From an uncultured Mailhella sp. (lineage in GTDB: Bacteria > Desulfobacterota > Desulfovibrionia > Desulfovibrionales > Desulfovibrionaceae), in NCBI RefSeq assembly GCF_944324995.1, contig NZ_CALUYL010000030.1, positions 1 through 37,354 on the forward strand: a stretch of 37,354 bases of DNA, given 5' to 3'. The notes under the pieces were generated by a model. The model ran no database searches. It was not told the DNA's origin and was given only the letters and a program-made list of their open reading frames with translations. A program made the translations under genes and the position numbers. Shown here one piece after another: positions 10,944-36,468 of this stretch. The stretch's first letter is position 1, and every line of letters starts with the position of its first letter.

Positions 10944-12112
10944 ATCTTCTCCAGCGACGCCTGTTCCTGGAGCACGCCAAGACGTTTTTTCTGTCCATGG
11001 CCGTGCTCCTGCTGTTCATCCTCATGGGCCGCGCTCTCCAGCTGCGCGACATGCTCCTCGGTCTTGAGCTGAGCATCTGGGATACCCTGCGCCTGTTCGG
11101 ATATCTGAGCCCGTTCTTTCTGCTCATCATCTGCCCCATCGCCTGCATGCTGGCGGTTTTCCTCACCTTTTTGCGCATGAGCACAGACAGGGAACTCGTC
11201 GCCCTCAAGGCCGGCGGCGTGAGCCTGTATCAGATGCTGCCCGCGCCGCTCCTCTTTTCCGTGCTCTGCGCGCTGTTCGGCTTCTGGATTTCCGTGTACT
11301 GGCAGGCCTGGGGCATGGGACATTTTCGTTCCGAGGTGCTGGACATCGCGAGCAGCAGCGCCCGTGTGGTGGTGCAGCCCGGCGTGTTCAACAAGGACGT
11401 GCCCAACATGGTCATGTTTGCGCGCAAGGTGGATCCCGTCACCGGCACCATGGCCGGCGTGATGGTGGAAGACCGGCGCGCCGCCGACACCACCATGACC
11501 ATTCTTGCCCCCGACGGCAGCCTCGACGCCGACTACGAAAACGGCGAACTCATCTTTCTGCTCAAGAACGGCCGCAGCTACACCGAAAAGGATAATGCGC
11601 TCTCGGTCATGGGCTTTCAGGAATACGCCGTGCGCCTGAGCTTCGACTCTCTGTTCCAGGGCGTGGACATGGGCCCGGTCAAGCCCAAGGAATACACATG
11701 GGCCCGCCTCTACGACACCCAGAACGAACGCGAGCTCCAGAAGACCGATCCGCGCATGGCCCGCAAAATCGTGGTGGAACGGCACAAGCGTCACGTGTTT
11801 CCCATTGCCTGCGTGGTGCTGTGCATCTTCGTCATACCCATTGCCACGTCGTTTCAGGGCCTCAAGCAGCAGACAGGCGTGCTCATGGCGCTGCTTCTGT
11901 TCCTCGTGTATTACAGTCTGCTCATGCTGGGCATCAGTCTCGGCGAAAGCGGCGATCTTGATCCGGCCATCGGCCTGTGGGTTCCCAACGCGGTCTTTCT
12001 GCTGATGGGCCTCTACGGCCTGCGGCTCGCCGCGCAGGAACGCATGCCGCGCATCACCGAATACTGGAATTCCCGCAAGAGCCGCAAAAAGAAGAAGGGG
12101 GCCGAGGCATGA
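10940..12112 (+). CDS. lptF: LPS export ABC transporter permease LptF
   Basis: Inner-membrane half of the LptB2FG extractor that pulls lipopolysaccharide out of the membrane toward the LptC/A/D bridge. The 390-residue protein has the YjgP/YjgQ layout: three N-terminal membrane helices (about residues 12-125, including RMSTDRELVALKAGGVSLYQ, the coupling-helix region), a large periplasmic beta domain with GVFNKDVPNMVMFARKVD, and three C-terminal helices after residue 280. It ends in a lysine-rich tail. The start at 10940 overlaps the small upstream gene as ATGA, and its own stop overlaps lptG the same way, so the three genes are one coupled operon. Length is close to the family (about 365). Confidence 0.95.
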   Translation: MNLLQRRLFLEHAKTFFLSMAVLLLFILMGRALQLRDMLLGLELSIWDTLRLFGYLSPFFLLIICPIACMLAVFLTFLRMSTDRELVALKAGGVSLYQMLPAPLLFSVLCALFGFWISVYWQAWGMGHFRSEVLDIASSSARVVVQPGVFNKDVPNMVMFARKVDPVTGTMAGVMVEDRRAADTTMTILAPDGSLDADYENGELIFLLKNGRSYTEKDNALSVMGFQEYAVRLSFDSLFQGVDMGPVKPKEYTWARLYDTQNERELQKTDPRMARKIVVERHKRHVFPIACVVLCIFVIPIATSFQGLKQQTGVLMALLLFLVYYSLLMLGISLGESGDLDPAIGLWVPNAVFLLMGLYGLRLAAQERMPRITEYWNSRKSRKKKKGAEA

Positions 12113-13176
12113 GCCTGCTTTTCCGATACATCTTCCTGCGGCACGCCCGCCTGCTGCTGCTCATCATGGGCCTCGGCGTGGGCATCTACCTGCTCACCGA
12201 CATCGTGGAACGCGTGGACATCTTCATTGAAGCGGGTTCCGGCATAGGTCTGGTGCTCCAGTACTTCGGCGTTCGCCTGCCTTCCATCATCGCGCAGATC
12301 CTGCCCGCCGTGTTCCTGCTGGCCACGGTGGTCACCCTCTGCCTCATGGGCGGAAGCCGCGAACTCACGGCCCTCCACGCCGGCGGCATTTCCTTTGCCA
12401 CCGTGGCCGTCATTCTGGTCATGTGCGGCGTGTTCTGGGGCGTCGTGCAGTTCTGCTGCTCGCAGCTGCTCGCCGTGCAGGGCGAACGCTATTCCCAGCA
12501 GATATGGCAGGAAGAGGTGCGCAAGAAAAATCTCGACGATCGTACCCTCGACGACGTGTGGTTCATGGAAAACGGCTGGACCGTGTCCGTGAAAACCCTC
12601 AGAGCCGACGGCGAAGGCTCCGGCTTCTCCGCCTTCCACGTCCGTGACGGCGGCTCCGACGTGGACGTCATCGTGCGCGCCCCCCGCGTGAAGGGCAGCG
12701 AAAACGGATGGGTGGCCGCCAACGCCGTGCGCCTCTATCCCGATACCTACCAGAGAGAAAACCTTCCCCGCCTGGAACTGCCCCTGCATCAGGATCCGGA
12801 ACTCTTCTTCTCTACGGAATCCAACAACCTGCAGCAGCTCCCGCTCTGGCAGCTCGGCGACGCCATCAGCCAGCTCGGCGCGGCGGGCTCCAACGTGGAC
12901 GGCCTGCGCACCGTGTGGCACGGAAAAATCGCCTACGCCGCCTCCCTCGTGGTCATGGCCGTGCTCGGCGCTGCCATCGTGTCCCGCTTCCCCAATATCT
13001 ACATCGCCGTGGCCATCAGCATGGCGGGTACCTTCATCATGTACGCCCTCACCATGTTCGGCGAATCCCTGGGCCAGCGCGGAACCCTCCCTCCCTTCAT
13101 GGCCGCCTGGGGACCCGATACCCTCCTGCTCCTCATCGCCGTCGGCAGACTCTACCTCGTCAGCATCCGACGCTGA
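12109..13176 (+). CDS. lptG: LPS export ABC transporter permease LptG
   Basis: Partner of LptF in LptB2FG. The 355-residue protein has the same 3+3 helix plan: N-terminal helices with the typical VERVDIFIEAG, PSIIAQILPAVFLLATVVTL followed by GGSRELTALHAGGIS (the coupling region), a periplasmic domain from about residue 125 to 265 with DDVWFMENG, and C-terminal helices with TMFGESLGQRGTLPPFMAAW, the classic LptG end. The start overlaps the lptF stop as ATGA. The operon carries no lptB, lptA or lptC in this window. A strong terminator follows within 30 nt. Confidence 0.95.
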   Translation: MSLLFRYIFLRHARLLLLIMGLGVGIYLLTDIVERVDIFIEAGSGIGLVLQYFGVRLPSIIAQILPAVFLLATVVTLCLMGGSRELTALHAGGISFATVAVILVMCGVFWGVVQFCCSQLLAVQGERYSQQIWQEEVRKKNLDDRTLDDVWFMENGWTVSVKTLRADGEGSGFSAFHVRDGGSDVDVIVRAPRVKGSENGWVAANAVRLYPDTYQRENLPRLELPLHQDPELFFSTESNNLQQLPLWQLGDAISQLGAAGSNVDGLRTVWHGKIAYAASLVVMAVLGAAIVSRFPNIYIAVAISMAGTFIMYALTMFGESLGQRGTLPPFMAAWGPDTLLLLIAVGRLYLVSIRR

Positions 13177-13203
13177 CACCCACACACCATACACCGCAAC
13201 CAG

Positions 13204-13236
13204 CGCGGATCGGCTCGCCCCGGTCCGCGTTTTTTT
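13204..13236 (+). terminator. Intrinsic terminator of the lptF-lptG operon
   Basis: CGCGGATCGG (13204-13213) pairs with CCGGTCCGCG (13220-13229) with one T-G wobble around a 6-nt loop, followed at once by seven T (13230-13236). Confidence 0.93.
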
Positions 13237-13241
13237 CGCTC

Positions 13242-13295
13242 GGAAAGACAGGAAAGGCAGGAAAGGCAGGAAAGGCAGGAAAGGCAGGAAAGGCA
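13242..13295. repeat. Six tandem copies of a 9-bp unit, GGAAAGGCA
   Basis: Units start at 13242 (one change, GGAAAGACA), 13251, 13260, 13269, 13278 and 13287. A looser version of the same unit forms a tandem at 35634-35694 in front of the second repeat cluster, and a single unit is at 36105-36113. The unit length of 9 and lack of spacers rule out CRISPR. Copy number should be variable. Confidence 0.95.
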
Positions 13296-13750
13296 GGCGG
13301 GGGAAATAATTCCCCCCGCGCCCCCCTGTTTCCGCCGACGGCTTCGCCCTCGGCGGGGAGGGAGTGTGCAGGCAAAGCGAGTTGCCTATAACTGAGGCCG
13401 TGCAGAAAGGTCATGACTGCAGAGGGCGGGGTGCTTGGCGGGCGTTGTTCGGTCTGCGGACTCAGTGCAGGTGTGTCCTGTCGGACCCACCTGCGGTGGC
13501 CGACTCCTGTCCGGCCTTCGCCGGACAGTCGTGTCAAAGGAAGAGATTTCCAGATGTTTTGGAGGGAACATCGAGGCAGGTTCGCACATGCAGACCGGAA
13601 GGCCGTCTCCCAACGCTAGGGGGCCCGCGACCTGTCTTCAGACGGTCGCGCCGACGGGCATAAGCAGGCGGGATTCATTCCCGCCGTTAAACGCAATGCC
13701 CGTCGTACAAGTCCCGCAGGCCGAACGGCGTGTCTTGCGCAAACGGGACG
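13296..13750 (+). repeat. Mosaic palindromic repeat, copy 1 (palindrome, hairpin and structured module A)
   Basis: Starts with a near-palindrome (13298-13318) and a hairpin CCGCCGA/TCGGCGG, then module A from about 13428. Stems of module A: P1 13467-13473/13488-13494 plus 13475-13478/13483-13486; P2 13507-13515/13520-13528; P3 13627-13632/13644-13649 plus 13634-13636/13641-13643; P4 13652-13661/13696-13705 enclosing P5 13667-13673/13679-13685. It is homologous to 36000-36468 over about 320 nt, and its 3' half to 35813-35985. P2, P3 and P5 carry compensatory changes among copies. Candidate structured RNA or dispersed palindromic element; no protein is conserved across copies. Orientation is assigned as plus only for convenience. 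Confidence 0.8.
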
Positions 13751-13775
13751 TGGCGGACTCCGGGCGCCCGCATGC

Positions 13776-13857
13776 CGCCCCACCTGCGGTGGCCGACGCC
13801 TGTCCGGCCTGCGCCGGACAGGCGTGTCAAAGGAATAGATTTTCAGATGTTGGGGGA
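13776..13857 (+). repeat. Partial copy A' of the structured module (CCACC hairpin and P2 only)
   Basis: Directly after module A the segment from CCCACCTGCGGTGG onward recurs (compare 13487-13560). Its P2 hairpin is the best formed of the three: 13796-13808 pairs perfectly with 13813-13825 (13 bp, CTGC loop). The partner of P1 is absent, so only the alternative CCACC/GGTGG hairpin can form here. Confidence 0.8.
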
Positions 13858-14010
13858 GAAGTATCCGGCGAAAGAGGCCCGCTGATGGAGGAATGTCCGG
13901 GGACGCTGGTGGGGAAGGCAGCGCCCATAAATAAAAGTTTTAGGAAGGAGGATGGGGGTGCGGGGGAAGGAGGAAAGCCCTTTTTCAAAAGGGTTTCCTC
14001 TTTTTCCCGC
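13858..14010. repeat. 153-bp direct repeat R1 with terminal 51-nt hairpin
   Basis: Matches R2 (14129-14281) at all but about four of 153 positions, in the same orientation, 271 nt apart. The last 51 nt (13960-14010) form a long hairpin: GCGGGGGAAGGAGGAAA, one bulged G, CCCTTTT, TC loop, then the complementary arm, here with three C-to-T changes in the distal 3' arm that mostly become G-T pairs. Without a long T-run it can only be a moderately efficient bidirectional terminator. Confidence 0.95.
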
Positions 14011-14128
14011 AATCACAACTTCTTTGCGCCTGTTTTCGGCGCGGAGGTTCAAACAGCACAAAGCGCACCTCAGCGCGTTGTCAACGCTCCGGGGAGTGCG
14101 GATGACATTGGAAAATTGAAGGGAAAAG

Positions 14129-14281
14129 GAAGTATCCGGCGAAAGAGGCCCGCTGATGGAGGAATGTTCGGGGACGCTGGTGGGGAAGGCAGCGCCCATA
14201 AATAAAAGTTTTAGGAAGGAGGATGGGGGTGCGGGGGAAGGAGGAAAGCCCTTTTTCAAAAGGGTTTCCTCCTTCCCCCGC
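14129..14281. repeat. 153-bp direct repeat R2 with terminal 51-nt hairpin
   Basis: Second copy of R1. Its hairpin (14231-14281) is perfect apart from one bulged G, with about 24 base pairs. It lies between the convergent lptG and acetyltransferase genes and 27 nt downstream of the latter's stop, so it probably ends the acetyltransferase transcript. The preceding 100 nt contain ATAAATAAAAGTTTT, also present at R3. Confidence 0.95.
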
Positions 14282-14307
14282 ATCTCTCCCCCTCTCTCTC
14301 TTTCTTC

Positions 14308-14877: not shown

Positions 14878-15188
14878 GAGAGCCTTCTGCAACGCAGTGT
14901 TTCGGAATGGGGCGTCTGACCGGAGAAGCGGCGGCCTGAGGGAAAGCGCGGAAGCTGCCTGCGCGGCTGCGGATTGATCCGGCGGGGAAGGGAAGAAGCC
15001 GGGGAGACCGCGCACTGAGGGAGGGGCTTGAACGGAGCGTTTGACGGGACGTTGCTGGAAGCGGGCCGCGACGCCTGCGCCCCAGGTACTGAAAAATAAA
15101 AAGTTTTCGGAAAGAGGATGGGGGTGCGGGGGAAGGAGAAAAGCCCTTTTTCAAAAGGGTTTTCTCCTTCCCCCGCCGAATTTCTCTC
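14878..15188. other. Spacer between lepA and the acetyltransferase gene
   Basis: 311 nt without a gene. The lepA-proximal half holds repeat R3 and its hairpin; the other half, upstream of the acetyltransferase, is GC-rich. I could not identify a convincing promoter in it. Confidence 0.6.
15091..15176 (-). repeat. Diverged copy R3 of the hairpin module; probable lepA terminator
   Basis: Shares the last ~85 nt of R1/R2 (AATAAAAAGTTTT, GAGGATGGGGGT, then the hairpin at 15126-15176). The inner stem reads GGAGAAAA/TTTTCTCC where R2 has GGAGGAAA/TTTCCTCC, a paired G-C to A-T change that keeps the helix. It ends 12 nt from the lepA stop; on the minus strand the stem is followed further down by T-rich CTTTTTATTTTTC. 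Confidence 0.85.
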
Positions 15189-35633: not shown

Positions 35634-35694
35634 GGAAAGGCTGAAAGGCAGAAAAGGCAGGAAGAGAGGAAAGGCAGAAAAGGCAGGAAAGGCA
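35634..35694. repeat. Degenerate tandem of a GGAAAGGCA-type unit
   Basis: About six to seven units varying between GGAAAGGCA, GAAAAGGCA and GGAAGAGA, directly in front of mosaic copy 2. It is the diverged counterpart of the exact tandem at 13242-13295, which stands in the same place relative to copy 1. Confidence 0.9.
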
Positions 35695-35985
35695 TGCGGG
35701 GGAAATAATTCCCCCCGCGCCCCCCTGATTCTGCCTCCCGGCTTCGCCGGATCGGCAGGACAGGGGGAACGGGAAAATTACGCCCGAAGCGAAGGGCGAA
35801 GGGGGGAGTGCCTGCCGGAAGGCCGTCTTTCAACGCACTGGGGCCCCGGGCGACGTCAGGAGCCCGGCCGACGGCAGGCAAGTAGCCGGAACTCACTTCC
35901 GGCGTTAAACGCAGCCGCCGTCGTACAAGTTCCGCAGCCTGTACAGTGTGTCTTGCTCAAACGGGCCTGCGTGTTCTTCGGGGGA
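35695..35985 (+). repeat. Mosaic palindromic repeat, copy 2 (with truncated module C)
   Basis: Holds the GGGGGAAATAATTCCCCCC palindrome (35698-35717), hairpin CTGCC-CCGGC/GCCGG-GGCAG, the segment GAACGGGAAAATTACGCC shared with copy 3, then module C (35813-35985), which lacks P1 and P2. C has P3 as CCGGGC/GCCCGG (35846-35851, 35862-35867), P4 as CGACGGC/GCCGTCG (35869-35875, 35917-35923), and P5 as GCCGGAA/TTCCGGC (35885-35891, 35897-35903). Each stem differs from copy 1 on both arms yet still pairs. GTTAAACGCA after P5 is unchanged from copy 1. Confidence 0.8.
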
Positions 35986-35999
35986 CTGCAAGGTCAGAA

Positions 36000-36468
36000 A
36001 TAATTCCCCCCGCGCCCCCCTGTTTCTGCCTCCCGGCTTCGCCGGTTCGGCAGGGCGGGGTGAACGGGAAGATTATGCCGAAGCCAAGGGCAAGGGGGGC
36101 GTTTGGAAAGGCAGCGGCTGCGGATGCCGGGGTGCTTGGCAGGCGCTGTTCGGGCTGCGGACGCAGTGCAGGTGTGTCCTTACGGACCCACCTGCGGTGG
36201 CCGACTCCTGTCCGACAAATGTCGGACAGTCGTGAGTAAGGAAGGATTTCCAGATGTTTTGGGGAGGGAACGCCGAGGGTAAGTTCGCAGATGCAGACCG
36301 GAAAACGTTTTTTCAACGCTTGGGGGCCCGCGACCTGCCTTCAGGCGGTCGCGCCGACGGGCATAAGCAGTCGGGATTCACTCCCGCCGTAAACGCAATG
36401 CCCGTCGTGCAAGTGACGCAGCTCGTACAGCGTGTCTTGCGCAAACGGGACTGCGTGTTCTTTGGGCG
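36000..36468 (+). repeat. Mosaic palindromic repeat, copy 3 (with full module B)
   Basis: Begins AATAATTCCCCCCGCG (the left arm of the palindrome is missing), followed by the CTGCC...GGCAG hairpin, GAACGGGAAGATTATGCC, and one GGAAAGGCA unit (36105-36113). Module B from about 36130 matches module A over about 320 nt. Stems: P1 36168-36174/36189-36195; P2 36208-36216/36221-36229 (CTGTCCGAC/GTCGGACAG); P3 36330-36335/36347-36352 plus GCC/GGC (36337-36339, 36344-36346); P4 36355-36364/36398-36407; P5 36372-36376/36382-36386. Confidence 0.8.

Follow-up and report, generated by a model that had tools for sequence, protein, structure and literature searches.

Introduction

Neisserial mosaic elements, ERIC and MITEs are intergenic, folded, non-coding and repeated, and the small interspersed repeats found in bacterial genomes are commonly ascribed to mobile passengers. 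In the excerpts of the published account used here, the BOX elements of streptococci are modular composites with variable tandem internal units, which are intergenic and folded, show few current insertions, are enriched between convergent genes, occur in excess on the leading strand, and have proliferated across the whole chromosome (PMC3049150). The same excerpts put the leading-strand share of pneumococcal repeat families at 61-63% (PMC3049150). REP sequences and BIMEs are described, in the part of the source drawn on, as short GTAG-headed hairpins with many extragenic copies, grouped in mosaics (PMC2817692).

The window analysed here is a whole contig (C30, 37,354 nucleotides) of a 2.92 Mb Mailhella genome (G000; Desulfovibrionaceae). 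A first-pass annotation made from its sequence had described three repeat modules, A, B and C, as sharing order and orientation. We found that A and B were composites of two separable units of ~165 nt, named X and Y, and that C held the Y half only. Upstream of X and Y lay a minisatellite (module M) and then a hairpin module (P), and at site A a further repeat (R) followed downstream.

In organisation, these elements resembled BOX as excerpted. They too were composite, intergenic, folded, enriched at convergent gene ends, biased to the leading strand and poor in insertions, and they formed tandem P-Y units (~294 bp) and P-X-Y mixtures. They differed from the excerpted BOX in belonging to another phylum, in occupying one domain instead of the whole chromosome, and in a leading share of 29/38 and 17/17 in two genomes against 61-63%; moreover, covariation across species was shown pair by pair for the Mailhella elements. 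The likeness to REP lay in the GYAG-headed core hairpin of Y, which resembled the REP heads of the excerpt (PMC2817692). The REP criterion is a GT(A/G)G head plus a palindrome, whereas the head of Y is GYAG and its core sits inside a 165-nt multi-helix module. REPs alternate within a BIME, whereas the modules of the Mailhella composites were mostly in one orientation, with exceptions. X and Y also shared the intergenic, folded, non-coding and repeated character of neisserial mosaic elements, ERIC and MITEs, as these are generally described and as they appear in the excerpts of PMC3049150. They differed in being GC-rich (cross-species Y matches, n=112, had a GC content of 0.48-0.73, whereas MITEs are AT-rich) and in that no clean empty site with a target duplication was seen in four places. 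No description of these elements was found in the literature searched. To our knowledge, BOX- or BIME-type repeats offer no counterpart to this joint occurrence of deep covariation, constraint on diverged copies, one-arm confinement and replication polarity. We see in the elements a known kind of repeat, modular, folded and intergenic like BOX and BIME, and on our best reading they form a new family with its own combination of traits.

Modules of the window

Covariance models of Y (R1) and X (R2) matched G000 at 58 and 45 places, on 12 and 11 of its 44 contigs respectively, counts that contain weak and partial matches and fragments. The 12 Y-bearing contigs totalled 525,640 of 2,916,202 bases. 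The modules at the two sites of the window are listed in Table 1. Module R contained a long hairpin around CCCTTTTTCAAAAGGG. The first-pass annotation had allowed for a known RNA class or a coding gene, and neither was found: no family of Rfam 15 reached its gathering threshold across the whole window, with only two matches at E <= 1 over 13200-13900, both far under gathering scores, and 0 of 43 G000 composites overlapped a gene predicted by a home-made gene finder.

Table 1. Features at sites A and B of the window (positions in the window)
Feature	Position	Strand	Evidence and remarks
Intrinsic-terminator-like hairpin, between lptF/G-like gene (11977-13176) and site A element	13202-13231	+	Weak alone: shuffled regions average 1.2 such sites
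Module M, site A, minisatellite of ~9-nt units (GGAAAGGCA), leads into the element	13242-13299	+	Sequence
Module P, site A, hairpin GCGGGGGAAATAATTCCCCCCGC plus a second one that can form many alternative stems	13301-13357	+	Repeat comparison, HMM
Module X, site A	13414-13575	+	R2, 187 bits; cross-species pairs
Module Y, site A	13586-13752	+	R1, 162 bits; cross-species pairs
Y core hairpin, site A: GCAG head, GCGGGA/TCCCGC stem, TTCAT loop, CGTTAA tail	13664-13690	+	Fits core motif pattern
Second X, partial, site A	13779-13851	+	R2 / repeat comparison
Module R, two copies (13858-14011, 14129-14282), 3' side of site A composite; part recurs at 15099-15176	13858-14282	+	Repeat comparison
Module M, site B	35643-35699	+	Sequence
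Module P, copy 1, site B	35700-35760	+	Repeat comparison
Module Y, copy 1, site B (module C of the first-pass annotation)	35806-35970	+	R1, 185 bits
Module P, copy 2, site B	35995-36060	+	Repeat comparison
Module X, site B	36115-36283	+	R2, 176 bits
Module Y, copy 2, site B	36289-36454	+	R1, 158 bits

Covariation and constraint in X and Y

It had been proposed from the three modules that paired changes keep the stems while loops and linkers stay fixed. The quoted stems were present: P2 was CTGTCCGGC/GCCGGACAG at 13507-13528 (A) and CTGTCCGAC/GTCGGACAG at 36208-36229 (B), the P3 inner stem was GTC-TTCA-GAC at 13634-13643 (A) and GCC-TTCA-GGC at 36337-36346 (B), and P5 was GGCGGGA/TCCCGCC at 13668-13685 (A) and GCCGGAA/TTCCGGC at 35885-35903 (C). 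Not every stem was intact, in that the last stem of B had one broken pair (GTCGGGA/TCCCGCC). The unpaired stretches GYAG, TTCAC, CGTTAARCG and CAAGY...GCAG were largely fixed across species while the stems varied. Within the window, B had lost a T of GTTAAACGCA, and the hairpin loop of C was CTCAC.

Covariation scores lay above those of shuffled and slid controls, both within the genome and across species. Within G000, the score of Y (37 copies) was 0.196 versus a shuffled mean of 0.126, and that of X (31 copies) was 0.142 versus 0.088; none of 500 shuffles reached either, and slid structures gave at most 0.054 and 0.036 respectively. Few pairs varied inside G000 alone, and the pairs of Y changed on both sides showed no excess (7 versus 7.0 in shuffles, with 350 of 500 reaching this), so that three copies, or even one genome, were insufficient to settle the fold. 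The cross-species alignment of Y, made without structure from 46 sequences of G000 and seven other Mailhella genomes, had 19 of 34 pairs changed on both sides and 89% of cells pairing, and scored 0.307 versus 0.121 shuffled (slides <=0.103). The outer P3 helix of Y was paired in just 77% of cells, as the interior of one variant is arranged differently. For X, 44 sequences from G000 and five other genomes were aligned. Helix 2, the central hairpin, was paired in 99.2% of cells and had compensated changes at 6 of its 12 pairs, and the T.G at its base persisted in 43 of 44 sequences; helices 1 and 3 were paired in 74% and 71% of cells. The cross-species score of X was 0.326 versus 0.178 shuffled, with slides at <=0.123 over Y and X. 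Two counts for X were not above shuffles, namely pairs changed on both sides (15 versus 14.0; 164 of 500 reached this) and further pair types (24 versus 30.3; 500 of 500). A parsimony count of pair switches was inflated by the exchange of whole hairpins. Judged from these alignments, X and Y carry, on their sense strand, a fold kept by compensatory change. Since relatives keep the fold as the letters change, it is probably useful.

One allele of the outer P3 arm of Y in two other species, G008 and G010 (GCGAGGGCC/GGCCCGAGTC), had apparent tandem G.A mismatches in place of pairs, and the short P2 allele of the own species had a similar GA/GA step. The loci concerned were L175:132-297, L128:12249-12410, and 35806-35970 of the window.

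Constraint was measured on 24 independent close Y pairs (<=4% different) from G000 and G264, the latter a complete single-contig genome of 3.17 Mb classed as the same species, with conserved columns defined from 50 sequences of other species. The close pairs had 9 differences in 1263 conserved positions versus 61 in 1929 elsewhere (Fisher p 1e-6). Recently diverged Y copies differed less at sites conserved elsewhere, and Y copies therefore appear to be under selection after divergence. The same test was weak for X (p 0.009 with 13 pairs, nothing with 5 pairs). Selection on a fold, as put forward in the first-pass annotation, was supported by cross-species covariation together with the constraint in recent Y copies.

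Wobble pairs were counted in the strict stems of the own species. Y had G.T 43 versus A.C 22, after 10 of its 36 pairs had been omitted beforehand as weak or constant wobbles, and X had G.T 77 versus A.C 5, with 7 of its 37 pairs omitted on the same grounds and 52 of the 77 G.T cells coming from one constant pair. Unpaired sites leaned the opposite way (C>T 54/1405, G>A 70/1496). In the strict Y stems of other species, G.T and A.C were about equal (P2 4:3, outer P3 7:5, inner P3 0:1), which speaks against our best reading. The wobble pattern moderately favoured the sense strand as the folded strand.

Confinement to one chromosomal domain

In G264, the 69 Y matches spanned 199-732 kb and the 32 X matches 222-784 kb. 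No match of either kind was found outside 585 kb (18%) of one chromosome arm, in searches that scored 150 first-look candidates out of 2205 and 150 out of 1931, so that weak matches elsewhere can be missed. Whole-genome model searches scored 150 of ~1900-2200 such candidates per genome, and 49 each in a survey of 17 other Mailhella genomes, of which 4 had no Y match and several had just one to four, a scarcity that counts against our best reading. The R1 matches in G017, of the same genus, and in G033, of another genus, were mostly weak. GC skew in G264 switched from plus to minus within 20-80 kb and back within 1.4-1.8 Mb, positions that place the domain on one replichore. A terminus macrodomain spanning both arms was rejected because the elements of G264 were on one arm only, ~120-760 kb from the skew switch in 20-80 kb.

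The element-bearing stretches of G008 were collinear with 150-680 kb of G264. Among the G008 Y matches listed, 40 of 41 lay on C27:705-980 kb or C28:237-434 kb; the other, a weak match (C27:94,789, 32 bits), was outside the domain and counts against confinement. At ~390-400 kb of C28 (L128, L129), the GC skew changed sign abruptly and neighbouring stretches had widely separated counterparts in G264, a pattern suggestive of a rearrangement or a mis-join.

The stretches of G264 examined for other features came to 790 kb, of which 450,000 bases were inside the domain and 340,000 outside. Module P gave 81 HMM hits in the examined domain stretches and 0 in the others. Module R occurred at 21 domain places and at one further place (797.6 kb), often beside composites; 16 of these 22 were on the minus strand and 6 on the plus strand. 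The coding fraction, by a simple gene finder, was 0.66 in the domain (23 stretches) versus 0.76 outside (17 stretches).

P-Y units also formed tandem arrays of 2-4 with ~294 bp spacing in G264 (for example C1:198994-199745, 323029-324079 and 361263-362015). No three-unit P-Y run was seen in the draft G000 at the places compared with G264; several G000 contigs end inside repeats, so array length in drafts is unreliable.

Module content of shared sites

Of 31 orthologous places in G000 and G264, 24 differed in module content, 6 lacked modules in one genome and 1 was the same; some of the 24 may be artefacts, because synteny blocks sometimes broke off within an element, but the two window sites were clear. 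Site A was P-X-Y-x in one genome and P-Y-x in the other, and site B was P-Y-P-X-Y versus P-Y-P-Y-P-Y. Four places were aligned base by base: two had deletion remnants in G000, one showed a tandem-unit difference, and at the fourth (C24:3063-3471) gain and loss were indistinguishable. No clean target duplication was found among these four, C24:3063-3471 being ambiguous. Whole-hairpin variants were common to several copies, and modules were exchanged between sites.

In three other species, 59 of 74 element clusters were mappable, and 33 of the 59 lay within 1 kb of a G264 element site (G008 7/19, G010 9/18, G015 17/22), compared with 24% of domain positions, an expectation that would rise somewhat from intergenic placement alone. 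As read from these comparisons, many sites are old, and the modules at them are duplicated, lost and exchanged between strains. This modest sharing of sites counts against our best reading.

Orientation and gene context

Orientation followed replication more than the neighbouring genes. In G264, the sense strand was on the leading side in 29 of 38 composites, compared with 126 of 284 predicted domain genes (p 1e-4), and four of five further X matches outside the examined stretches were on the same strand. The 19 clusters in the examined stretches of G008 comprised 17 leading, 0 lagging and 2 mixed, calls that rest on the skew signs of sampled stretches, including the odd switch on C28. In G000, orientation agreed with local skew at 31 of 41. 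Between tandem genes, the elements of G264 ran with the genes in 9 cases and against them in 9; those of G000 ran 10 with and 4 against, which counts against a replication-driven reading. Convergent gene ends were preferred (16 of 38 composites versus 32 of 178), a preference that would also come from tolerance of passengers.

Because orientation tracked replication more than genes, we infer that the fold most probably works at the level of DNA, and X and Y probably act through the single-stranded sense strand. On this arm, we take the sense strand to be the lagging-strand template, from the skew and by the usual convention; it would be exposed as a single strand when the fork passes, and hairpins such as the GYAG-headed Y core would then be bound by a protein. 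The reading we tentatively favour is that modules M, P, Y, X and R form a fold-selected repeat family of the gut genus Mailhella, and that this set, which occupies a single ~0.6 Mb domain on one replichore and is polarised with replication, would mark or organise that domain through DNA-level action of its sense strand, while recombination between copies would keep reshuffling modules without moving the sites. In a more specific form, which we consider unlikely as it stands, single-stranded hairpins of the lagging-strand template on one arm would be read by a protein whose task is to organise, replicate or segregate the ~0.6 Mb domain, and this polar marking would be kept across species as modules are exchanged. 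With covariation, constraint, old sites, one-arm confinement and polarity together in one family, a chromosomal role becomes testable.

It is possible, with considerable doubt, that X and Y instead function as RNA, being transcribed mostly as 3' tails of the gene whose stop codon they adjoin, in which the fold sets 3' ends, protects the mRNA, or binds a protein or other RNAs. Compensatory change beside fixed loops and the own-species wobble excess on the sense strand agree with this, as does the gene context: at 16 of 25 G264 sites with a co-directional upstream gene (by our reading), the element, starting with module M, begins directly at the stop codon; a simple scan called a terminator separating the two at 2 of these 25, two more being visible by eye; and the upstream gene was co-directional at 29 of 39 G000 sites. 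Against it, the site A element is preceded by the terminator-like hairpin, with no sigma-70-like promoter found at 13100-14000, site B is antisense to both neighbouring genes, and the even split between tandem genes in G264 weakens a sense-strand 3'UTR as the sole explanation. An RNA function also leaves one-arm confinement and replication polarity unexplained. Of the structured RNA family that the first-pass annotation had suggested, the selected fold held up; a discrete RNA was unsupported, given the missing promoter, the hairpin at site A, the antisense position of site B and the replication-linked orientation.

The core hairpin and mobility

The core of Y consists of a GYAG head (GTAG and GCAG both occur), a 6-7 bp stem and a TTCAY loop. 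Of the 297 genomes examined in the order, 12 had the motif GYAG-stem-TTCAY-stem-CGTYAA; they belonged to 5 of 55 genera, all in one family, and the reversed control motif was present in none of the 297. Genera differed in their core stems, most of the pairing being retained (GCGCAA/TTGCGC in G033, GCGGGA/TCCCGC in G025), and G017 of the own genus had CCGCAA/TTGCGG. G033 carried 236 core copies, and in G033 and G025 the hairpins were scattered across many contigs or throughout the chromosome.

These hairpins bear on whether the elements are relics of mobility, that is, non-autonomous elements akin to REP/IS200 that travelled at the fork in the form of folded single-stranded DNA, with the fold selected for mobility and the present copies being passengers. 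The GYAG head of Y, the 236 copies in G033 and the others across five genera, replication polarity, and the preference for convergent gene ends would fit such an origin. So would the Y1 transposases of Mailhella genomes: G000 had four Y1 matches, of which two were intact and, by our reading, IS200-like. In the REP/RAYT arrangement, a RAYT is flanked by two inverted REPs; Y1_Tnp searches of G000 and six relatives found no RAYT, no core hairpin was present in the ~1.5-kb flanks examined around the Y1 genes of G000, and the Y1 search gave no match in G033 and a fragment in G025. The RAYT hypothesis was therefore not supported by these searches; the REP/RAYT link mentioned at the outset drew some support from the GYAG-headed hairpin of Y and none from the transposase searches. 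The constraint on recent Y copies, the confinement to one domain, and the four places aligned base by base, where deletion remnants, a tandem-unit difference and one gain or loss were seen, also speak against the mobile origin, and we regard it as doubtful. Other mobile sources were searched for. A link to a reverse transcriptase (retron, group II intron) was rejected, no RVT_1 being found in G000. A phage or plasmid origin was rejected, 13400-13770 having no blastn match among 50,697 records of phages and 72,556 of plasmids, as was a viral origin, the exact pattern being absent from viral contigs.

That stems are kept paired and hairpin variants spread without selection, by palindrome correction through template switching plus gene conversion, would suit the whole-hairpin variants common to copies, the exchange of modules between sites and the few pairs varying inside one genome, but is very unlikely, since unpaired stretches have for the most part stayed the same between species, recent copies are constrained where other species are conserved, and mismatches and wobbles such as the T.G of the X central hairpin persist uncorrected.

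Apart from the domain-marking role that we tentatively favour, two folds of ~165 nt that match no Rfam family, and a REP-like hairpin in five genera without a known transposase, are of use in their own right. Short repeats of G025 and G033 had no match in plasmids, nor that of G033 in phages; they are built on the same GYAG-TTCAY hairpin with different stems (L066, L079 and L097 in G025; L094 and L095 in G033).
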